Assembly: GCF_000769405.2 (NCBI RefSeq)
Contig: NZ_CP053439.1
Span: 2,728,001 to 2,792,000 of the forward strand
Length of the DNA stretch: 64,000 nt
From: Rhizobium brockwellii
GTDB taxonomy: Bacteria > Pseudomonadota > Alphaproteobacteria > Rhizobiales > Rhizobiaceae
Reading direction: 5' to 3'
Part shown: piece by piece, positions 26,150 through 48,611 of the stretch
Numbering within the stretch: position 1 is the stretch's first letter
How the letters are laid out: every line of letters begins with the position of its first letter
Program-made: the position numbers and the translations under genes
The notes under the pieces: model-generated
The model's input: only the letters and a program-made list of their open reading frames with translations
Told to the model about the DNA's origin: nothing
The model's database searches: none

Positions 26150-27196
26150 ATGCCTATTGCAAGAGGCTACGCCGCGACCGACGCTTCCAAGCCGCTGACC
26201 CCTTTCACCTTCGAACGCCGCGATCCGAACCCCGATGACGTCGTGATCGATATCAAGTTTGCCGGCATCTGCCATTCGGACATCCATACTGTCCGCAACG
26301 AATGGAAGAACGCCGTCTATCCGATCGTGCCGGGCCATGAGATCGCCGGCATCATCTCGGCCGTCGGTTCCGATGTGACAAAATTCAAGGTCGGCGATCG
26401 CGTCGGCGTCGGCTGCTTCGTCGATTCCTGCATCGGCTGCGCCGAGCGCGACCTCGATCGGGAACAGTATATGCCGGGGCTCGCCGGCACCTACAACGAC
26501 TTCGAAGCCGACCGCAAGACACGGACCCAGGGCGGCTATTCCGACTCGATCGTCGTCAGGGAAGGCTATGTCATGTCCATTCCGGACAATCTGCCGCTCG
26601 ATGCCTCTGCGCCGCTGCTCTGCGCCGGCATCACGCTTTACTCGCCGCTGCGCCACTGGAATGCCGGCCCCGGCAAGAAGGTCGCGATCGTTGGGATGGG
26701 CGGCCTCGGCCATATGGGCGTCAAGCTCGGCGCCGCCATGGGCGCCGATATCACCGTTCTCTCCCAGAGCCTTTCCAAGAAGGAAGATGGGCTGAAGCTC
26801 GGCGCCAAGGAATATTACGCCACCAACGACCCGGAAACCTTCACGAAACTCGCCGGCACTTTCGACCTGATCATCTGCACCGTCAGCGCCGAGATCGACT
26901 GGAACGCCTATCTCGGCCTCCTGAAGGTGGACGGTTCCTTCGTGGTGGTCGGCGCGCCGGAAAACCCGATCCCCGTGCATGCCTTCTCGATCATCCCCGG
27001 CCGCAAGAGCATATCAGGCTCGATGATCGGCTCGATCAAGGAAACCCAGGAAATGCTCGACTTCTGCGGCGAGCACAACATCGTCTCCGAGATCGAGAAG
27101 ATCAACATCCAGCAGGTCAACGAAGCCTATGAACGCGTCCTGAAAAGCGACGTCCGCTACCGCTTCGTCATCGACATCGCCTCGCTGGCGGCTTGA
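26150..27196 (+). CDS. Zinc-type alcohol dehydrogenase with altered structural-zinc site
   Basis: 348 residues of the YahK/cinnamyl-alcohol-dehydrogenase group. The catalytic zinc ligands look intact: Cys41 (ICHSDIH), His63-Glu64 (PGHE) and the later Cys in [10 protein letters not shown]. The NADP fold has [10 protein letters not shown]. The structural zinc loop normally reads C-x2-C-x2-C-x7-C. Here it is [17 protein letters not shown], so the third and fourth cysteines are Arg100 and Met108. The ATG at 26150 is preferred over 26141 because AAGGA is then eight bases away. Probably controlled by the divergent AraC regulator. Confidence 0.92.
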
Positions 27197-42717: not shown

Positions 42718-43641
42718 TCAGTTCCACTGCCGGTCCGCGCCGCTGGCGCACATCGACGGGTCCTGCCCCATAGCCTCGATGAGAAAATCCAGAACCGTCT
42801 TGACGCGCAGCGGCATGTTGCGCCGCGAGGGATAGACAACGGTAACCGGCAGCCGGCTGGGCTGGAAATCCTTCATTACGGGGACCAACTGGCCGGCGGC
42901 GATATCAGGCATCGCGATGATGTGCGAAAGCACCGCAAGACCCGCTCCAGCAAGGGCTGCCCGGTGAATGGAGACGGCATTGCAGGCGGTCAGCCGCGGT
43001 GAGATCCGGACCGATATGTCTTCCGAACCGTTCGAGAAGGACCAGGTATTGGCCTCCCCTGCCCTGTTGTAGCACAGGCATTCATGGTCCTTGATCTCCT
43101 TCGGTGCGCGGGGAGCCGCCCTACGTGCGAGATAGGCGGGAGATGCAACGAGGAAGGCGGTCGTCCAACCGATCCGCCGGCAGACGAGGCTGCTGTCGGC
43201 GACGTGGCCCAAGCGCACTTCGAGATCCAGGCGCTCCTCGATCATATCCGACCCCTGCTCCCTGAAGATGAGTTCGACCGAGAGCTTCGGATGGGCGGCG
43301 AGAAGATCGCCGAGCCGCTCGCTGAGATAGAGGCCGAGTGGTGCTGGAACGCTGAGCCTGACCTTTCCCGAGGCCATGGTTCCGTCCGATCCGGCCGCAT
43401 CGCCGAGCTCCTCAACCGCTTCGAGAATCCGCAGCGCCATCGGCAGCATCCGCTCCCCCTCTGCCGTCAGCGACAGGCCGCTCGTCGTGCGATGCAGGAG
43501 GCGCGTGTTGAAGTGGCCCTCGAGGGCTGCGACCTGTCGTGAGACCGCCGGCTGCGTCACGTCGAGATCGTGCGCCGCCGCCGAAAACGAACCCGTCTCC
43601 ACGACGCGCTGAAAGGTCCGCAATGCCGAAACGATATCCAC
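42718..43641 (-). CDS. LysR-family regulator
   Basis: 307 residues. The winged helix is MDIVSALRTFQRVVETGSFSAAAHDLDVTQPAVSRQVAALEGHFNTRLLHRTTSGLSLTAEG, with the LysR_substrate domain after about residue 90. Divergent from the AhpD-like gene across 130 bp; Rrf2-type sites occupy the part of that region next to the AhpD-like gene. It may act on the same promoter. The effector is unknown. Confidence 0.92.
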   Translation of the reverse strand: MDIVSALRTFQRVVETGSFSAAAHDLDVTQPAVSRQVAALEGHFNTRLLHRTTSGLSLTAEGERMLPMALRILEAVEELGDAAGSDGTMASGKVRLSVPAPLGLYLSERLGDLLAAHPKLSVELIFREQGSDMIEERLDLEVRLGHVADSSLVCRRIGWTTAFLVASPAYLARRAAPRAPKEIKDHECLCYNRAGEANTWSFSNGSEDISVRISPRLTACNAVSIHRAALAGAGLAVLSHIIAMPDIAAGQLVPVMKDFQPSRLPVTVVYPSRRNMPLRVKTVLDFLIEAMGQDPSMCASGADRQWN

Positions 43642-43716
43642 CCCTGCCCCTCATACTTTTGCGCATAGGCTTTATGCAGCCAGACTAAGCGAGAATGGCT
43701 TTACAGTCCAGCAATT

Positions 43717-43754
43717 AAGGATATCTTTTATCCATAAGGATATTTAATATCCTT
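43717..43754. promoter_or_regulatory. Two adjacent 19-bp operators, probable Rrf2 sites
   Basis: Site 1 is AAGGATATCTTTTATCCAT (43717-43735) and site 2 is AAGGATATTTAATATCCTT (43736-43754), the latter a perfect 8-3-8 palindrome. They end 17 bases before the AhpD-like start codon. The same architecture occurs once before rrf2 at 47780-47798. Confidence 0.7.
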
Positions 43755-43771
43755 AATTAAAGGAGAGACGC

Positions 43772-44251
43772 ATGACCCAGCGACTGAACTACGCCCAGCA
43801 GTCCCCCGAGCTTTTCAAGAAATTCATGGAATTCAGCATGGCGCTGAAGAGCAGCGTGATCGACGAGAAGCTACAGGCCCTCGTCGAGACTCGCGCCTCG
43901 CAGATCAATGGATGCGGCTTTTGCCTCGATATGCATGTAAAGCAGGCCAAGATCCATGGCGAGACGGAACTGCGGCTCTACCACGTGGCCATTTGGCGGG
44001 AATCGAACCTGTTCATCCCCCGCGAGCGCGCAGCCCTTGCCTGGACCGAAGCGCTGACGAGGCTTCCCGAGGGCGGCGTTCCAGACGAGATTTACGAACG
44101 GGTGCGCGGCCAGCTATCCGAGAAGGAAATCTCGGACCTGACTTTCGTCGTCATGGCGATCAATGCCTGGAACCGCGTCAATGTCGGCTTCAAGACCGTG
44201 CCCGGTACGGCCGACAAGGCCTACGGCCTCGATAAGGCCGGCCTGAACTAA
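43772..44251 (+). CDS. Carboxymuconolactone decarboxylase / AhpD-like protein
   Basis: 159 residues. The AhpD-type redox motif is NGCGFCLDMH (Cys48, Cys51, His55), and the CMD fold has RERAALAWTEALTRLPEGG. Such proteins act as alkylhydroperoxidases or peroxidase partners. Strong AAAGGAG before the ATG. First gene of a likely operon with an NmrA-like reductase and a cupin. Two Rrf2-type sites overlap its promoter, so it is probably derepressed by oxidative or electrophile stress. Confidence 0.9.
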   Translation: MTQRLNYAQQSPELFKKFMEFSMALKSSVIDEKLQALVETRASQINGCGFCLDMHVKQAKIHGETELRLYHVAIWRESNLFIPRERAALAWTEALTRLPEGGVPDEIYERVRGQLSEKEISDLTFVVMAINAWNRVNVGFKTVPGTADKAYGLDKAGLN

Positions 44252-44319
44252 ACCGCGCAATTTATTGAGAAGATTCAACTTTGACGCTGCCGCGCCGCGG
44301 CAGCGAACGGAGATCCATT

Positions 44320-45075
44320 ATGAAAATCGTTGTCATCGGCGGAACCGGCCTTATCGGTTCGAAGACTGTCGAACGCCTGCGCAAACGCGGCCATGACGTG
44401 ATTGCCGCATCGCCGAACTCCGGCGTCAACACAATCACCGGAGAAGGACTGGCAGAGGCGCTCTTCGGCGCCGAAGTCGTGCTCGACCTCGCCAATTCGC
44501 CGTCCTTCGAGGACAAGGCCGTCCTCGAATTCTTCGAGACCTCGGGTCGCAACCTTCTCGCTGCCGAGAAATTCGCCGGCGTCAGGCACCATATCGCCCT
44601 TTCCGTGGTCGGCACGGAGCGTCTGCAGGAAAGCGGCTATTTCCGCGGCAAACTCGCTCAGGAAAAGCTGATCAAGGCATCGGGTATTCCCTATACCATT
44701 GTGCATTCGACGCAGTTCATGGAATTCCTCGGCGGCATCGCCCAATCGGGGACGGTCGGCCAGACGGTCCGCCTGTCGCCGGCCTATGTGCAGCCGATCG
44801 TTTCCGACGACGTCGCCGATGTCATGGCGGATATGGCTCTCGCACCGCCCGCCAACGCGACGATCGAGATATCAGGTCCGGAACGGGCGCGCCTCAGCGA
44901 ACTCGTCGGCCGATATTTGAAGGCCATGAAAGATCCGCGCACCGTCGAGGCCGATGCCGAGGCGAAATATTTCGGCGCGAGACTCAACGACCGGTCGCTC
45001 GTTTCCGACAACAACTCGCGGCTCGGCGCGATCACCTTCGAGCAGTGGTTTGCCAAGTCCGCCCAGCCGAAGTGA
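44320..45075 (+). CDS. NmrA/SDR-like NAD(P)-binding reductase
   Basis: 251 residues. The NAD(P) motif is KIVVIGGTGLIGSKTVERLRKRGHDVIAASP. FAGVRHHIALSVVGTERLQESGYFRGKLAQEKLIKASGIPYTIVHSTQFMEF follows, including the usual contact segment. No complete YxxxK triad is evident, as in other NmrA-like members. Start fixed by GGAG before the ATG. It lies 68 bases downstream of the AhpD-like gene. It may reduce quinones or nitro-compounds; substrate unknown. Confidence 0.88.
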   Translation: MKIVVIGGTGLIGSKTVERLRKRGHDVIAASPNSGVNTITGEGLAEALFGAEVVLDLANSPSFEDKAVLEFFETSGRNLLAAEKFAGVRHHIALSVVGTERLQESGYFRGKLAQEKLIKASGIPYTIVHSTQFMEFLGGIAQSGTVGQTVRLSPAYVQPIVSDDVADVMADMALAPPANATIEISGPERARLSELVGRYLKAMKDPRTVEADAEAKYFGARLNDRSLVSDNNSRLGAITFEQWFAKSAQPK

Positions 45076-45143
45076 TGCGACTTGCCCTGAGGACGCGGCC
45101 AGTCGGGCGCGTCTTGCCAAACCCTGCAACCATGGAGATTCCG

Positions 45144-45560
45144 ATGATCAAAACATCATTCCTCGCCGGTGCGCTCGCCCTTCTGGCAGCCACGGGCGCC
45201 AGCGCCGATGAGAGCAGCAAAGCTGCCAAGGTGACGCTCGTCTATGAAAACGAACTTCCGAACGTACCGGGCAAGAGCATCAAGGGCGTGCTGGTCGAGT
45301 ACGGCCCAGGCGGTTTCTCCGACGGCCACACACATCCCGATACGGCCTTCATCTACGCCACCGTGCTCGAAGGAGCGATCCGCAGCCAGGTCAATGACGG
45401 CCCCGTCAAGGTCTATCATGCCGGAGAGAGCTTCTCCGAAATGCCGGGCGACCGCCATGGAGTCAGCGCCAACGGTAGCAAGACGAAGCCCGCCCGCCTG
45501 CTCGCCGTCTTCGTCGTCGATACCAAGCAGAAAGAGCTGACCTATCCGCTCAAGAAGTGA
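45144..45560 (+). CDS. Exported cupin-domain protein
   Basis: 138 residues with a signal peptide (MIKTSFLAGALALLAATGASAD). The cupin metal site is FSDGHTHPDTAFIYATVLEGAIRSQV, then EMPGDRHGVSAN; together His, His, Glu/Asp and His can bind a metal. Start at 45144 because GGAG lies before it; 45132 is also in frame. Third gene of the AhpD-like operon. A hairpin follows the stop. Substrate unknown. Confidence 0.85.
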   Translation: MIKTSFLAGALALLAATGASADESSKAAKVTLVYENELPNVPGKSIKGVLVEYGPGGFSDGHTHPDTAFIYATVLEGAIRSQVNDGPVKVYHAGESFSEMPGDRHGVSANGSKTKPARLLAVFVVDTKQKELTYPLKK

Positions 45561-45573
45561 TGATCCGCCTATA

Positions 45574-45606
45574 CCGCCTGCGCAGGCCCGATGCTTGCGC
45601 AGGCGG
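45574..45606 (+). terminator. Hairpin after the cupin gene
   Basis: CCGCCTGCGCA (45574-45584) pairs perfectly with TGCGCAGGCGG (45596-45606). No U-run follows. It may end the AhpD-like operon or attenuate the downstream channel gene. Confidence 0.55.
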
Positions 45607-45654
45607 CCGAGATACTGAATCAGGGGCGGCTCGCCCCATTCCGGAGACAGAGAG

Positions 45655-47136
45655 ATGATTGACGACGTGCTCTTCGGCAAGCCTCTGATATCCCTCATTA
45701 CAGTTGGATTCGCCGGGATCATCATCTGGCATCTTCTCTCCCGCCAACGGCCGACGACGCGACTGGTGGTGCAAATCCTCTTCTTTGCGGCGATGACGTT
45801 GATCCTTGTCGGCAGCGGCATCGAACCCCACCGGTTTCAAGGATATGAGTCCGAGGACCCGCAGGCCCTGCTCGTCATCGTCGCAAAAACGCTCTGGTGG
45901 ATCCATCTGGCATGGGCCGTCATCGGTTTCATCAGGCTGTATCTGGTACTGGAGGGTAGTCCGCGAGAAGCCCGACTGCTCCAGGATCTCGTCATCGGGG
46001 TCGTCTATATCGGCATGGCCCTGTCGGTTATGGCCTTCGTCTTCGGTGTGCCGATCGGCACCCTCGTCGCGACCTCGGGCGTGGTCGCCATCATTCTCGG
46101 TTTGGCGCTCCAGAATACGCTGGCCGACGTCTTCTCCGGCATCGCGCTGACACTCGGCCGGCCATACATCATCGGCGACTGGATCCTTCTCAGCGACGGC
46201 ACGGAGGGGCGCGTCGTCGAAAGCAACTGGCGCGCGACACACATCCTGACTAGCGCAAACAATGTCGTCGTTCTGCCGAACAATTTTCTGGCAAAGCTCG
46301 GCCTGACGAATGTAAGCCGGCCGGACGAGAGCCATCTCCTGGTCCTCACCATCCGCATCGCCCCGACGCGGATGCCGGCATCGGTCCGGCAAGTCATGGC
46401 AACGGCGCTTGCGAGCTGCAATTCGATCGTGCGCGAGCCGCCGCCGGTCGTGGCACTGAAGGGGCTGGATGCCACGGCGCTGGAGGTCGAGCTGTGGTTC
46501 CGGGTGACGAGCCCGAGCCGGCGTGTGACGGCGCGAAACGAGGTGCTCGATCTCGTCTATCGTCACTGCAAATCAGGCGGCCTGCTTTTGGCTGTTCCGG
46601 CGGCGGCCTCGATCCTGACGGGCGATCTGCCGACCGAAGAAAGCACACGGCCGCCCCGTGTGACGCCGCTCGAACTGATCGAGGCCATTCCGATCTTTGC
46701 GACGCTGACATCGGATGAAAAGCAGAAACTCGCCGAGACCACGGCCGTGCGGGAGTTCCGCAAGGGCGATGTCATCGTGCGGGAGGGCGAGATGCTCCCG
46801 TCGCTGATGATGGTGCGGGCAGGTATCATCGCGGCGCGGCACGGAGATGAGGAGCGCGGGCGGCTTGCGCCGGGTGATGTCTTTGGAGAGACCGGCCTGC
46901 TCGCAGGCATGCAGGAAGTCTGCACCCTGGAGGCTCTTACCCCGGTGACAACCTATGAAATCGATCAGAAGGCCTTCGCGCCGCTGCTGAGTGAACGTCC
47001 CGCGCTGGCGGAAGAAATCGCCGAAGACCTCGCCAGCCGCGCCGAGCGCTTTCGCGACATCGCCGCCCTGCCGCCGGAACACGCCCGTAACGCGCACGCC
47101 ATTCTGAAAACCATCCGGACCATCTTCAGGGCATAG
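45655..47136 (+). CDS. MscS-type channel fused to a cNMP-binding-like domain
   Basis: 493 residues. Membrane segments occupy about 10-155. The pore helix GVVAIILGLALQNTLADVFSGIALTLGRPYIIGDWI (about 142-177) is the MscS signature, followed by the beta and C-terminal MscS domain (to about 320). A cyclic-nucleotide-binding-like domain follows (IPIFATLTSDEKQKLAETT...FGETGLLAGMQEVCTLEAL). In true cAMP binders an Arg follows the FGE..LL loop; here it is Glu, so cyclic nucleotide binding is doubtful. It may release solutes on osmotic shock. Follows the cupin gene after a hairpin. Confidence 0.88.
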   Translation: MIDDVLFGKPLISLITVGFAGIIIWHLLSRQRPTTRLVVQILFFAAMTLILVGSGIEPHRFQGYESEDPQALLVIVAKTLWWIHLAWAVIGFIRLYLVLEGSPREARLLQDLVIGVVYIGMALSVMAFVFGVPIGTLVATSGVVAIILGLALQNTLADVFSGIALTLGRPYIIGDWILLSDGTEGRVVESNWRATHILTSANNVVVLPNNFLAKLGLTNVSRPDESHLLVLTIRIAPTRMPASVRQVMATALASCNSIVREPPPVVALKGLDATALEVELWFRVTSPSRRVTARNEVLDLVYRHCKSGGLLLAVPAAASILTGDLPTEESTRPPRVTPLELIEAIPIFATLTSDEKQKLAETTAVREFRKGDVIVREGEMLPSLMMVRAGIIAARHGDEERGRLAPGDVFGETGLLAGMQEVCTLEALTPVTTYEIDQKAFAPLLSERPALAEEIAEDLASRAERFRDIAALPPEHARNAHAILKTIRTIFRA

Positions 47137-47137
47137 A

Positions 47138-47231
47138 GCAATTCCAGCAAAAGTGCGCAGCGGTTTGGCGTCCGGAATTGCGAAAAACAAATACAGGGCA
47201 TTTCCGCGGCTCGGAAAAAAGCGGAGATGCC
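47138..47231. repeat. Intergenic palindromic repeat of rhizobial type
   Basis: GCAATTCC (47138-47145) and GGAATTGC (47174-47181) form inverted arms around a sequence reading CAGCAAAAGTGCGCAGCGGTT in part, of the kind repeated between genes in rhizobia. A second hairpin (47197-47207 with 47221-47231) follows. It lies between convergent genes and may serve as a terminator. Confidence 0.6.
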
Positions 47232-47250
47232 ATGAAGGGCGGCCATTCGC

Positions 47251-47739
47251 TCAGCCGGCGCGCTTAAGCACCCATGCGAAGGTGCTCTGCCAAATGTCGG
47301 ACGGCACTTCCTCGGACAAGGTGCCGACCAGATCGGAAAGCCGGACGCGCCTCAGCGTATCCCGCCAGGCCTCGTCGGCCTCCCACATGATGCGCGCGAC
47401 CGCGCATGGCTTGCTGTCGCAATATCCTTCCGGTCGGCAGGGATTGTTCGCCCGGATGTTCGTACAGGTAAAGCTGCGGGCCTTCCCCTCGACCGCCTCC
47501 ACGATCTCGAGAAAATTGATGTCCGAGGGGGTCTTGGCAAGCCTGTAGCCGCCACTCGGACCGAGTGTGGTCTCGACCAGCGATGCCTGCGAAAGGCTCT
47601 GCAGTGCTTTGGATAGATATTCCTTCGGCAGACCATGAAGCTCCGCGAGCGCCTTGGTGGAAAGATACCTGCCCTCTGGCAGGCCCGCGAGAATGGCACA
47701 GCAGTGAAGCGCCCACTCGACTTGGCTTTTCAGGATCAT
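47251..47739 (-). CDS. Rrf2-family regulator with cysteine cluster
   Basis: 162 residues. The winged helix is YLSTKALAELHGLPKEYLSKALQSLSQASLVETTLGPSGGYRLAK (25-69). A cluster Cys92, Cys101, Cys107, Cys112 (C-x8-C-x5-C-x4-C) sits where IscR and NsrR hold an Fe-S cluster, so Fe-S or thiol sensing is likely; spacing differs from IscR (C-x5-C-x5-C). Its own promoter carries the same 19-bp site as the AhpD-like promoter 4 kb away. Confidence 0.9.
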   Translation of the reverse strand: MILKSQVEWALHCCAILAGLPEGRYLSTKALAELHGLPKEYLSKALQSLSQASLVETTLGPSGGYRLAKTPSDINFLEIVEAVEGKARSFTCTNIRANNPCRPEGYCDSKPCAVARIMWEADEAWRDTLRRVRLSDLVGTLSEEVPSDIWQSTFAWVLKRAG

Positions 47740-47779
47740 TCAGCAACTCGTGTGGATGGCTGGTTCTGCCAATGGAATT

Positions 47780-47798
47780 AAGGATATACCATATCCGA
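47780..47798. promoter_or_regulatory. 19-bp Rrf2-type operator in the rrf2 promoter
   Basis: AAGGATATACCATATCCGA has the same 8-3-8 layout as the two sites at 43717-43754, with two mismatches in the right arm. It lies 41-59 bases upstream of the rrf2 start. Confidence 0.65.
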
Positions 47799-47873: not shown

Positions 47874-48467
47874 TCAGCCCCCGTTCTCGTCCTCCCCGCG
47901 CGTCTGCTCATTTTCAATTCCGGCGATCAGCTTGCGCAGCAGCGCAGCGAGCGCCTCGCGCTCGTTTCCGTCAAGAGCCTGCAGAAACGAAGCTTCGCTC
48001 GTCATGTCGGTGCGGAAGGCCTTTTCGGCGAGTGCCGCACCCGCCTCGCTCAATGCCACCAGCACGCTGCGCCCATCGCGTGGTGATTTCTCCCGGCGGA
48101 TCAGTCCCGCCTTCTCCAGCCGGTCAAGCCTGTGGGTCAGGCCTCCCGAGGAGATCATCAGCGCCGAATATATCTCCGTCGGGGTCATCAGGTAGGGCGT
48201 TCCGGAACGGCGAAGCGTTGCGATCACGTCGAATTCGCCGCGGTCGAGGCCAAAATCGGCAAATGTCGCCTCAATGCTGGGGCGCACCAGGTTCGACAGC
48301 CGGAAGGCCCGCCCCAGGATCGCCATCGGCTCCGTGTCGAGGTTGGGCAGTTCCACCGCCCATTGCCGGCGCAGCCGGTCGACATGGTCATCCGCGGAGC
48401 GGTCACCCTCCCTGGGGCGGTCCTCGTCCCCCCGGCGGTCGCGGTCTCCTTCAGTCCCATTCATCAT
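47874..48467 (-). CDS. MarR-family regulator
   Basis: 197 residues from the first of two adjacent ATG codons (48467). A charged N-terminal extension (NGTEGDRDRRGDEDRPREGDRSADD) precedes the winged helix (GTPYLMTPTEIYSALMISSGGLTHRLDRLEKAGLIRREKSPRDGRSVLVALS). GAGG lies upstream. Divergent from a cupin gene; repeated GAAGATA half-sites lie between them, so it likely represses both. Confidence 0.88.
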   Translation of the reverse strand: MMNGTEGDRDRRGDEDRPREGDRSADDHVDRLRRQWAVELPNLDTEPMAILGRAFRLSNLVRPSIEATFADFGLDRGEFDVIATLRRSGTPYLMTPTEIYSALMISSGGLTHRLDRLEKAGLIRREKSPRDGRSVLVALSEAGAALAEKAFRTDMTSEASFLQALDGNEREALAALLRKLIAGIENEQTRGEDENGG

Positions 48468-48521
48468 TCTCTGCCTCGTATGCCACCACAGCCGAGACAT
48501 ACACCTTCCATTCGATTCAAG

Positions 48522-48574
48522 GAAGATATCTTGACAGGAAGATACCTTTAAGAATATATCTTCTCACGAAGATA
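48522..48574. promoter_or_regulatory. Cluster of GAAGATA half-sites between marR and the cupin gene
   Basis: GAAGATA occurs at 48522, 48538 and 48568, and inverted as TATCTTC at 48557-48563. The first is part of a perfect 10-bp palindrome AAGATATCTT (48523-48532). Likely binding sites for the MarR regulator. Confidence 0.55.
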
Positions 48575-48611
48575 CTTTGTATTCGCAAACGACACGAGCG
48601 GGAGGCAGGTG

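Follow-up and report, generated by a model that had tools for sequence, protein, structure and literature searches.

A probable RsrR-type Rrf2 regulator and its predicted operators at an AhpD-like, NmrA-like and cupin gene set in Rhizobium brockwellii

The genome of Rhizobium brockwellii appears to encode a redox switch in which an Rrf2-family regulator controls its own gene, rrf2, and a neighbouring row of genes for AhpD-like, NmrA-like, cupin and MscS-type proteins. These genes lie in a stretch of 64,000 nucleotides (the window; assembly GCF_000769405.2, contig NZ_CP053439.1, positions 2,728,001 to 2,792,000, forward strand). Three palindromic sites with the core GGATA-N5-TATCC, two of them abutting before the AhpD-like gene and one before rrf2, are almost certainly operators of this Rrf2 protein, and the protein is very likely a [2Fe-2S] sensor of the type represented by RsrR of Streptomyces venezuelae. 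The operator, its tie to this Rrf2 protein, its position before rrf2 and before the target genes, and the ligand-type residues are all read from comparison of sequences. The features that carry the argument are as follows.

43700..43727, + strand: predicted promoter of the AhpD-like operon, TTTACA-16-TATCTT; a weak match (9/12) with its -10 (43722-43727) inside operator 1
43717..43735, + strand: predicted operator 1 of the AhpD-like operon, AAGGATATCTTTTATCCAT; core perfect
43736..43754, + strand: predicted operator 2 of the AhpD-like operon, AAGGATATTTAATATCCTT; abuts operator 1 and is the sole perfect copy in the genome
47251..47739, - strand: rrf2, for a regulator probably of the RsrR type, 162 residues, with E8, W9, H12, H35, C92, C101, C107 and C112
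47780..47798, no strand assigned: predicted operator of rrf2, TCGGATATGGTATATCCTT when read on the - strand; its core lies at -57 relative to the start codon
47788..47816, - strand: predicted rrf2 promoter, TTTACA-17-TATGGT; weak, with its -10 inside the operator

Taken as a whole, the mechanism that we consider likely is that of a proteobacterial RsrR-type redox switch. An Rrf2 dimer would hold an oxidised [2Fe-2S] cluster between its subunits, with C92 and C112 of one and E8 and H12 of the other as ligands, and in this state would bind GGATA-N5-TATCC operators covering the -10 region, repressing its own gene via one operator and the AhpD-like/NmrA/cupin/MscS set via two operators 19 bp apart, presumably as two dimers. 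On reduction or loss of the cluster W9 would move and the protein would leave the DNA, as described for RsrR. An AhpD-like CxxC protein, an NAD(P)H-dependent NmrA-type reductase and a probably exported cupin would then be made, which may act on redox cyclers of the quinone kind, on peroxides or on other compounds that react with thiols; the repressor would be made again after release. We infer the cluster type, the direction of the switch, repression over activation, co-transcription, the inducer and the enzyme substrates.

The regulator and its candidate cluster ligands

By sequence, the nearest solved relative of the window Rrf2 protein in a search of the PDB is RsrR (6hsd, E=1e-31), the next Rrf2 protein following at 2.5e-9. 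An AlphaFold model (pLDDT, the predicted local distance difference test score, 88.6; 17 sequences) leads to the same place, Foldseek ranks 1-11 all being RsrR chains. The cluster ligands of RsrR are E8, H12, C90 and C110, with W9 acting as the switch (PMC9218516; papers are cited here by PMC number, each from extracts of its text). Residues 8, 9, 12, 90 and 110 were confirmed on the printed RsrR chain, and the window protein has E8, W9, H12, C92 and C112 in their place.

The conservation of these residues was followed in a scan of named genomes, in which the best 80 of at least 577 Rrf2 relatives were used for locus comparison. E8 is present in 79 of the 80 (the other, L151, is truncated and has a gap), H12, C92 and C112 in every one, and H35 in 76, with lower counts for W9 (31), C101 (29) and C107 (20); among the 25 close relatives W9 and C101 are complete and C107 is present in 20. 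A first-pass annotation of this DNA had taken four cysteines, C92-x8-C101-x5-C107-x4-C112, as residues where family members hold Fe-S clusters. The spacing is correct, and the outer pair, C92 and C112, is indeed invariant; C101 and C107 vary, and it is a glutamate and a histidine that are invariant instead. H35 is the equivalent of RsrR H33, for which the PDB lists an H33A variant. His33 has been discussed for its functional importance in RsrR.

Other Rrf2 identities were tried and rejected. Against NsrR, residue 8 is Glu, the spacing is x8/x5, the third cysteine is missing in 5 of the 25 close relatives and the NCBIfam NsrR score is 40.3 bits against a cut-off of 182. The IscR pattern C-x5-C-x5-C-x2-H differs from the C-x8-C-x5-C-x4-C found here (NCBIfam 36.6 bits against 207.55), and the RirA equivalog reaches 38.4 bits against a cut-off of 193. 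A SifR/YwnA identity fails for lack of the single conserved cysteine in HxxPNPxC, and the operator differs from TGTAA-N9-TTACA.

It may be, although we regard it as unlikely, that the close clade represents a hybrid sensor, in which the full RsrR Cys2-Glu-His set is accompanied by C101 beside C107, giving three cysteines nearly where the [4Fe-4S] protein NsrR holds its own. Two cluster forms could then be held or interconverted, or a disulphide coupled to the cluster, so that two signals would pass through one protein, with two dimers acting cooperatively on a 38-bp double operator. C107, however, aligns with RsrR C106, a residue that PMC9218516 does not list as a ligand; therefore only C101 is new, and the hybrid proposal is weakened, as is the NsrR-like one considered below.

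A cluster-free thiol switch, like SifR/YwnA or HypR, in which quinones or oxidants would be sensed via cysteine modification, is quite unlikely. SifR is an Rrf2 quinone sensor over the NAD(P)H quinone reductase YwnB (PMC9218516) and the operon here has a reductase-like gene too, but the single-cysteine signature and the operator of SifR are unmatched, and such a switch leaves the invariance of E8 and H12 without a reason. Less probable still, in our estimate, is a reading in which the Rrf2 protein occupies the sites yet senses nitric oxide (NO) or iron via an NsrR- or RirA-like [4Fe-4S] cluster held by C92, C101, C107 and E8. In the close relatives C101 and C107 stand roughly at the NsrR cysteine positions, and NsrR also has an acidic residue 8, its ligands in Streptomyces coelicolor being Cys 93, 99 and 105 plus Asp8 (for Asp8, PMC9338935). 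On the other hand, all five close relatives without C107 (L089, L091, L093, L094 and L097) keep the core site, H12 and C112 are kept in 80/80, RsrR is the nearest solved family by a wide margin, and no NO-detoxification family was found among the nine scanned proteins of the region. An RsrR-type [2Fe-2S] sensor remains the preferred assignment.

Predicted operators before rrf2 and the AhpD-like gene

The sites belong to a AAGGATAT-N3-ATATCCTT-type pattern, in full the 19-bp AAGGATATNNNATATCCTT. The first-pass annotation had placed two of them side by side before the AhpD-like gene, one perfect, and a third before rrf2, and scans of the window and of the genome (7,118,658 bases) bear this out. 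In the window the pattern occurs at 43717-43735 (two mismatches), 43736-43754 (none) and 47780-47798 (two), with a fourth place, at 26562, reached at three mismatches; by chance, 0.06 places per window would be expected with up to three mismatches allowed. Genome-wide, 16 places match with at most three mismatches (5 for the reversed control pattern), the three window sites being the only ones at two or fewer. Of the 13 places with three mismatches, C1:195824 is located directly 5' of an rrf2 paralogue.

All three window sites contain the core, GGATA-N5-TATCC, without a mismatch. The 7.1 Mb contain seven such perfect cores; the fourth precedes another rrf2 gene of this type, and the remaining three (C1:1036638, C2:237490 and C5:91673) lie away from any rrf2 gene; that at C2:237490 directly precedes a GntR/FadR-like gene, named by eye. 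The second RsrR-type rrf2 gene (L050 8456-9441; C1 about 194855-195840) has an ATGGATA-N5-TATCCAT site and is followed by its own AhpD-like gene. As a side observation, the genome may thus hold two parallel switches with slightly different operators.

Conservation of the core before rrf2 was examined in two sets of genomes. In a family search of 151 genomes drawn from a larger group, with Rrf2 relatives counted at E<=1e-25, a relative was found in 42, of which 10 hold a close group of 72-100% identity and the rest reach at most 50%. Every one of the 10 close rrf2 genes is preceded by the core, which is perfect in nine cases and has a single mismatch in the tenth, as are 17 of the 20 more distant ones examined. 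Among the 80 loci of the named-genome scan, 79 could be used, the contig stretch of L151 starting at the gene; the core lies within 200 bp 5' of rrf2 in 54/79 in perfect form and in 66/79 with at most one mismatch. The corresponding counts are 0/3950 and 18/3950 for shuffled upstreams, and 13/3142 and 23/3142 for random 200-bp windows of the same loci, which may include true AhpD-like sites. Without any preset pattern, GGATA-N5 emerges as the commonest 5-base dyad in the rrf2 upstreams (54/79; 39/54 in the distant ones alone). For 6 of the 13 rrf2 genes without a core (L089, L093-L097) rrf2 is the second gene of a same-strand pair and the site stands in front of the first, and L147 has perfect cores elsewhere in its locus; no core was found in L088, L099, L100 (Ktedonospora and Ktedonobacter), L103, L110 (Streptomyces) or L122.

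Close relatives of the regulator (57-71%) also occur in Ktedonospora, Solimonas, a Nitrospirae metagenome-assembled genome (MAG) and a Phycisphaeraceae MAG (L088, L089, L093 and L097), a distribution that suggests horizontal transfer of the regulator, with MAG misbinning as another possible cause.

The AhpD-like promoter was compared in 35 close loci (the window, L041-L049, L075-L098 and L107), 33 of which have the AhpD-like gene. In all 33 the 110 bp 5' of that gene include one or more cores with no more than one mismatch, and in 26 there are two cores exactly 19 bp apart (up to two mismatches per core being allowed for the pair), the exceptions being L045, L091, L092, L093, L094, L097 and L098. 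The first-pass annotation had named the absence of sites upstream of the orthologous genes as what would refute it; they are found at 33/33 close AhpD-like promoters and 66/79 rrf2 upstreams. The 33 upstream sequences are all different, and the two sets of loci may share species. By eye, CTTTAC or CTTGAC stands 5' of the sites, at a varying distance, in 31 of the 33 (not L087 or L098). Paired cores with a spacing of 16 bp instead of 19 occur in the distant loci L056, L058, L059, L134, L144, L145, L154 and L193, of which L059 and L134 probably come from one genome; this suggests two geometries of double operators.

Among the Rrf2 genes compared, the sites go with this type. None of the four other Rrf2 genes of the genome has a core with at most one mismatch in the 300 bp upstream, and neither does any of 27 upstreams of another Rrf2 group, RirA-like by our reading (query L062, 31 genomes searched); one of these 27 has only 38 bp available and two reach two mismatches. 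The sites are also absent together with rrf2. In the 151 genomes a close AhpD-like gene (at least 66% identity) occurs in 11 and a close Rrf2 gene in 10, all 10 being shared (Fisher 9e-15, phylogeny ignored). The eleventh genome, G027 (L190), has AhpD-like (73%), NmrA (68%) and cupin (36%) matches but yields no Rrf2 hit at E<=1e-25, and a 12.5-kb stretch of it contains no core even when one mismatch is allowed. Another five genomes match the AhpD-like protein less well (47-49%). Of the three that were compared, G126 and G142 being left out, two (L191 and L192) have neither rrf2 nor a site in the stretch, and L193 carries a distant rrf2 together with two sites at a 16-bp spacing.

The region before the AhpD-like gene contains two further features.

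42718..43641, - strand: divergent gene for a LysR-family regulator, by family search; detected in 20/33 close loci; probably a second input
43663..43677, no strand assigned: second palindrome, GCATAGGCTTTATGC, GCATA-N5-TATGC, between lysR and the AhpD-like gene; probably a LysR site

LysR genes often act on a divergent promoter. Binding of LysR, in place of Rrf2, at the sites upstream of the AhpD-like gene would fit their position within the 130-bp intergenic region; however, the sites are kept in 13/13 close loci without a detected divergent LysR gene, the same sites stand before rrf2 genes in loci without a LysR match, and it is the other palindrome (at most two mismatches, -98 to -111) that tracks LysR, occurring in 18/20 loci with the gene and 2/13 without it. 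We therefore regard a LysR role at these sites as very improbable and the second palindrome as a probable LysR site, so that the operon may have two inputs. Short AT-rich palindromes may arise by chance, but the genome-wide counts, the shuffles, the conserved 19-bp spacing and the co-absence with rrf2 leave a negligible likelihood that the sites are palindromes of chance or structural origin with no role in regulation. The presence of the sites in loci without LysR and their co-absence with Rrf2 thus link them to Rrf2, which supports the tie between the Rrf2 protein and the AhpD-NmrA-cupin operon drawn in the first-pass annotation.

A promoter scan of the 4.3-kb region gave two matches, both with the -10 inside these operators, one for the operon and one for rrf2; this arrangement fits repression by covering of the promoter, though the scan is weak.

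Several observations weigh against the RsrR-type reading. W9 is found in only 31/80 relatives, many distant homologues being without it, and the presence of C101 (25/25) and C107 (20/25) in the close clade could indicate another cluster type or a disulphide. Three of the 20 distant homologues of the family search (L024, L026 and L034) and 13 of the 79 rrf2 genes of the named-genome scan have no core upstream, and one of the seven rrf2 loci left without an explained site (L110) is a Streptomyces homologue. The 80 loci are mostly from Rhizobiales, so their counts are not independent, and the two promoter matches, against 1.1 expected by chance, make for a weak prediction.

Gene set and possible function

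The gene order is lysR (-), AhpD-like (+), NmrA-like (+), cupin (+), MscS-cNMP (+; cNMP, cyclic nucleotide monophosphate), rrf2 (-) and marR (-). The remaining genes are as follows.

43772..44251, + strand: AhpD-like protein of the carboxymuconolactone decarboxylase (CMD) family, by family search; 159 residues, C48-x2-C51-x3-H55; closest solved proteins PA0269 and Atu0492
44320..45075, + strand: NmrA/NAD(P)H-binding reductase-like protein, by family search; 251 residues
45144..45560, + strand: Cupin_2 protein, by family search; 138 residues
45655..47136, + strand: MscS-type channel with a C-terminal cNMP-binding domain, by family search; a variable member of the set, with a homologue in 11/80 loci
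47874..48500, - strand: marR gene

Family searches of the window proteins gave the CMD/AhpD core, NmrA/NAD(P)-binding, Cupin_2 and Rrf2 families, in agreement with the names first given to them; the divergent LysR gene and the same-strand MscS-cNMP channel gene between cupin and rrf2 had gone unmentioned. Co-transcription of the AhpD-like, NmrA, cupin and MscS genes is assumed because of their strand and spacing, and the cupin is probably exported, its N-terminus resembling a signal peptide by eye. In some of the loci the gene for the channel fused to a cNMP-binding domain comes last in the operon-like row. Between marR and a divergent cupin-glyoxalase pair there are repeats of the AAGATA/TATCTT kind (48522-48578), also visible in Rhizobium anhuiense (L076), which are probable MarR operators.

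Within the fetched stretches of the 80 loci, tblastn found homologues of the AhpD-like protein in 70, of the NmrA-like protein in 21, of the cupin in 19 and of the MscS channel in 11; the AhpD-like gene is therefore the core neighbour and the others are accessories. The AhpD-like protein is above the cut-off for the TIGR00778 AhpD core domain and is closest to PA0269 and Atu0492 (PDB 2ijc/2o4d and 2gmy; E 2e-37 to 5e-37). With both it shares the CxxC motif and the histidine: of the AhpD residues in PA0269 numbering (PMC3141380), C48, C51 and H55 are present, whereas residue 36, aligned by eye, is Ala here, Glu in PA0269 and His in Atu0492. In Agrobacterium (L120) an RsrR-type rrf2 that has an operator is followed by a gene whose product is nearly identical to Atu0492. 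The present comparison provides a regulatory context for AhpD-like proteins that have been solved yet are still named hypothetical, such as Atu0492. The NmrA-like protein has weak PDB matches to SimC7 and others, and the cupin has no PDB match at E<=0.001.

As to function, PA0269 is a weak peroxidase (PMC3141380), the Rrf2 repressor of the SifR/YwnA system controls the NAD(P)H quinone reductase YwnB (PMC9218516), and ahpD genes are reported to confer allicin resistance in Pseudomonas (PMC8001868). By analogy with YwnB, under another Rrf2 repressor, the NmrA-like protein may act as a quinone reductase, and the three precedents together suggest that the gene set could defend against redox cyclers or thiol-reactive compounds.

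Comparison with known systems

The first-pass annotation knew of no described system with this gene set. In the open-licence literature no paper joining Rrf2, carboxymuconolactone decarboxylase, NmrA and cupin was found, and as far as that literature shows a proteobacterial RsrR branch with its operator and its AhpD-like target set is new; the switch itself, however, has a precedent in RsrR, which shares the operator core and likewise has an NmrA-type target (PMC5015018).

Among other Rrf2 proteins, NsrR, RirA and IscR are likewise Fe-S regulators with ligands in the same region of the protein, but have other ligand sets, and their family scores for the window protein are far under the cut-offs. 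SifR/YwnA of Streptococcus and Bacillus is likewise a repressor tied to a quinone reductase, with a plausible quinone or electrophile role, but senses by a single cysteine and has no cluster ligands. In a Rhodobacter network, the Rrf2 regulator MppG is predicted to act on photosynthesis genes (PMC4344238).

RsrR of S. venezuelae (Sven6563; PDB 6hsd, 6hse, 6hsm, 6y42 and 6y45) shares with the window protein the Rrf2 fold, at 38-40% identity in Foldseek alignments, and E8, W9, H12, H33/H35, C90/C92, C106/C107 and C110/C112. Common to both systems are an operator of the form GGATA-N5-TRTCC, two operators in one promoter region, a site at the regulator's own promoter (bound, in the case of RsrR) and an NmrA-type target. 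The RsrR probe carries GGATACCCGATGTCC and GGATAGTCTGTGTCC, 27 bp apart, that is GGATA-N5-TGTCC twice (PMC5015018), one change from GGATA-N5-TATCC; the TGTCC form also occurs among the sites compared here. The cores therefore agree, whereas the outer letters do not (AAGGATA or ATGGATA here, CTCGGATA in the RsrR probe), and the operator pair is 19 bp apart here rather than 27. The window protein has the extra C101 and an AhpD-like/NmrA/cupin target set. The promoters of the RsrR gene itself and of an NmrA-type gene are bound by oxidised RsrR and only weakly by the reduced protein (PMC5015018, PMC9218516, PMC11138216, PMC12594620); this NmrA-type gene is described as coding for a LysR-type regulator with an NmrA domain, whereas here the NmrA-like protein stands alone. 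RsrR also binds more than 100 other places (PMC5015018), compared with four of seven perfect cores linked to this type of regulator here.

The experimental studies of RsrR that were found concern Streptomyces, and the signals that control RsrR in vivo are less well known (PMC12594620, 2025). In the rhizobial case the RsrR sensor type is accompanied by a compact and predictable set of genes in soil bacteria that are experimentally tractable, with one operator word, one core neighbour in 70/80 loci and natural variants, so that what an RsrR senses becomes directly testable.

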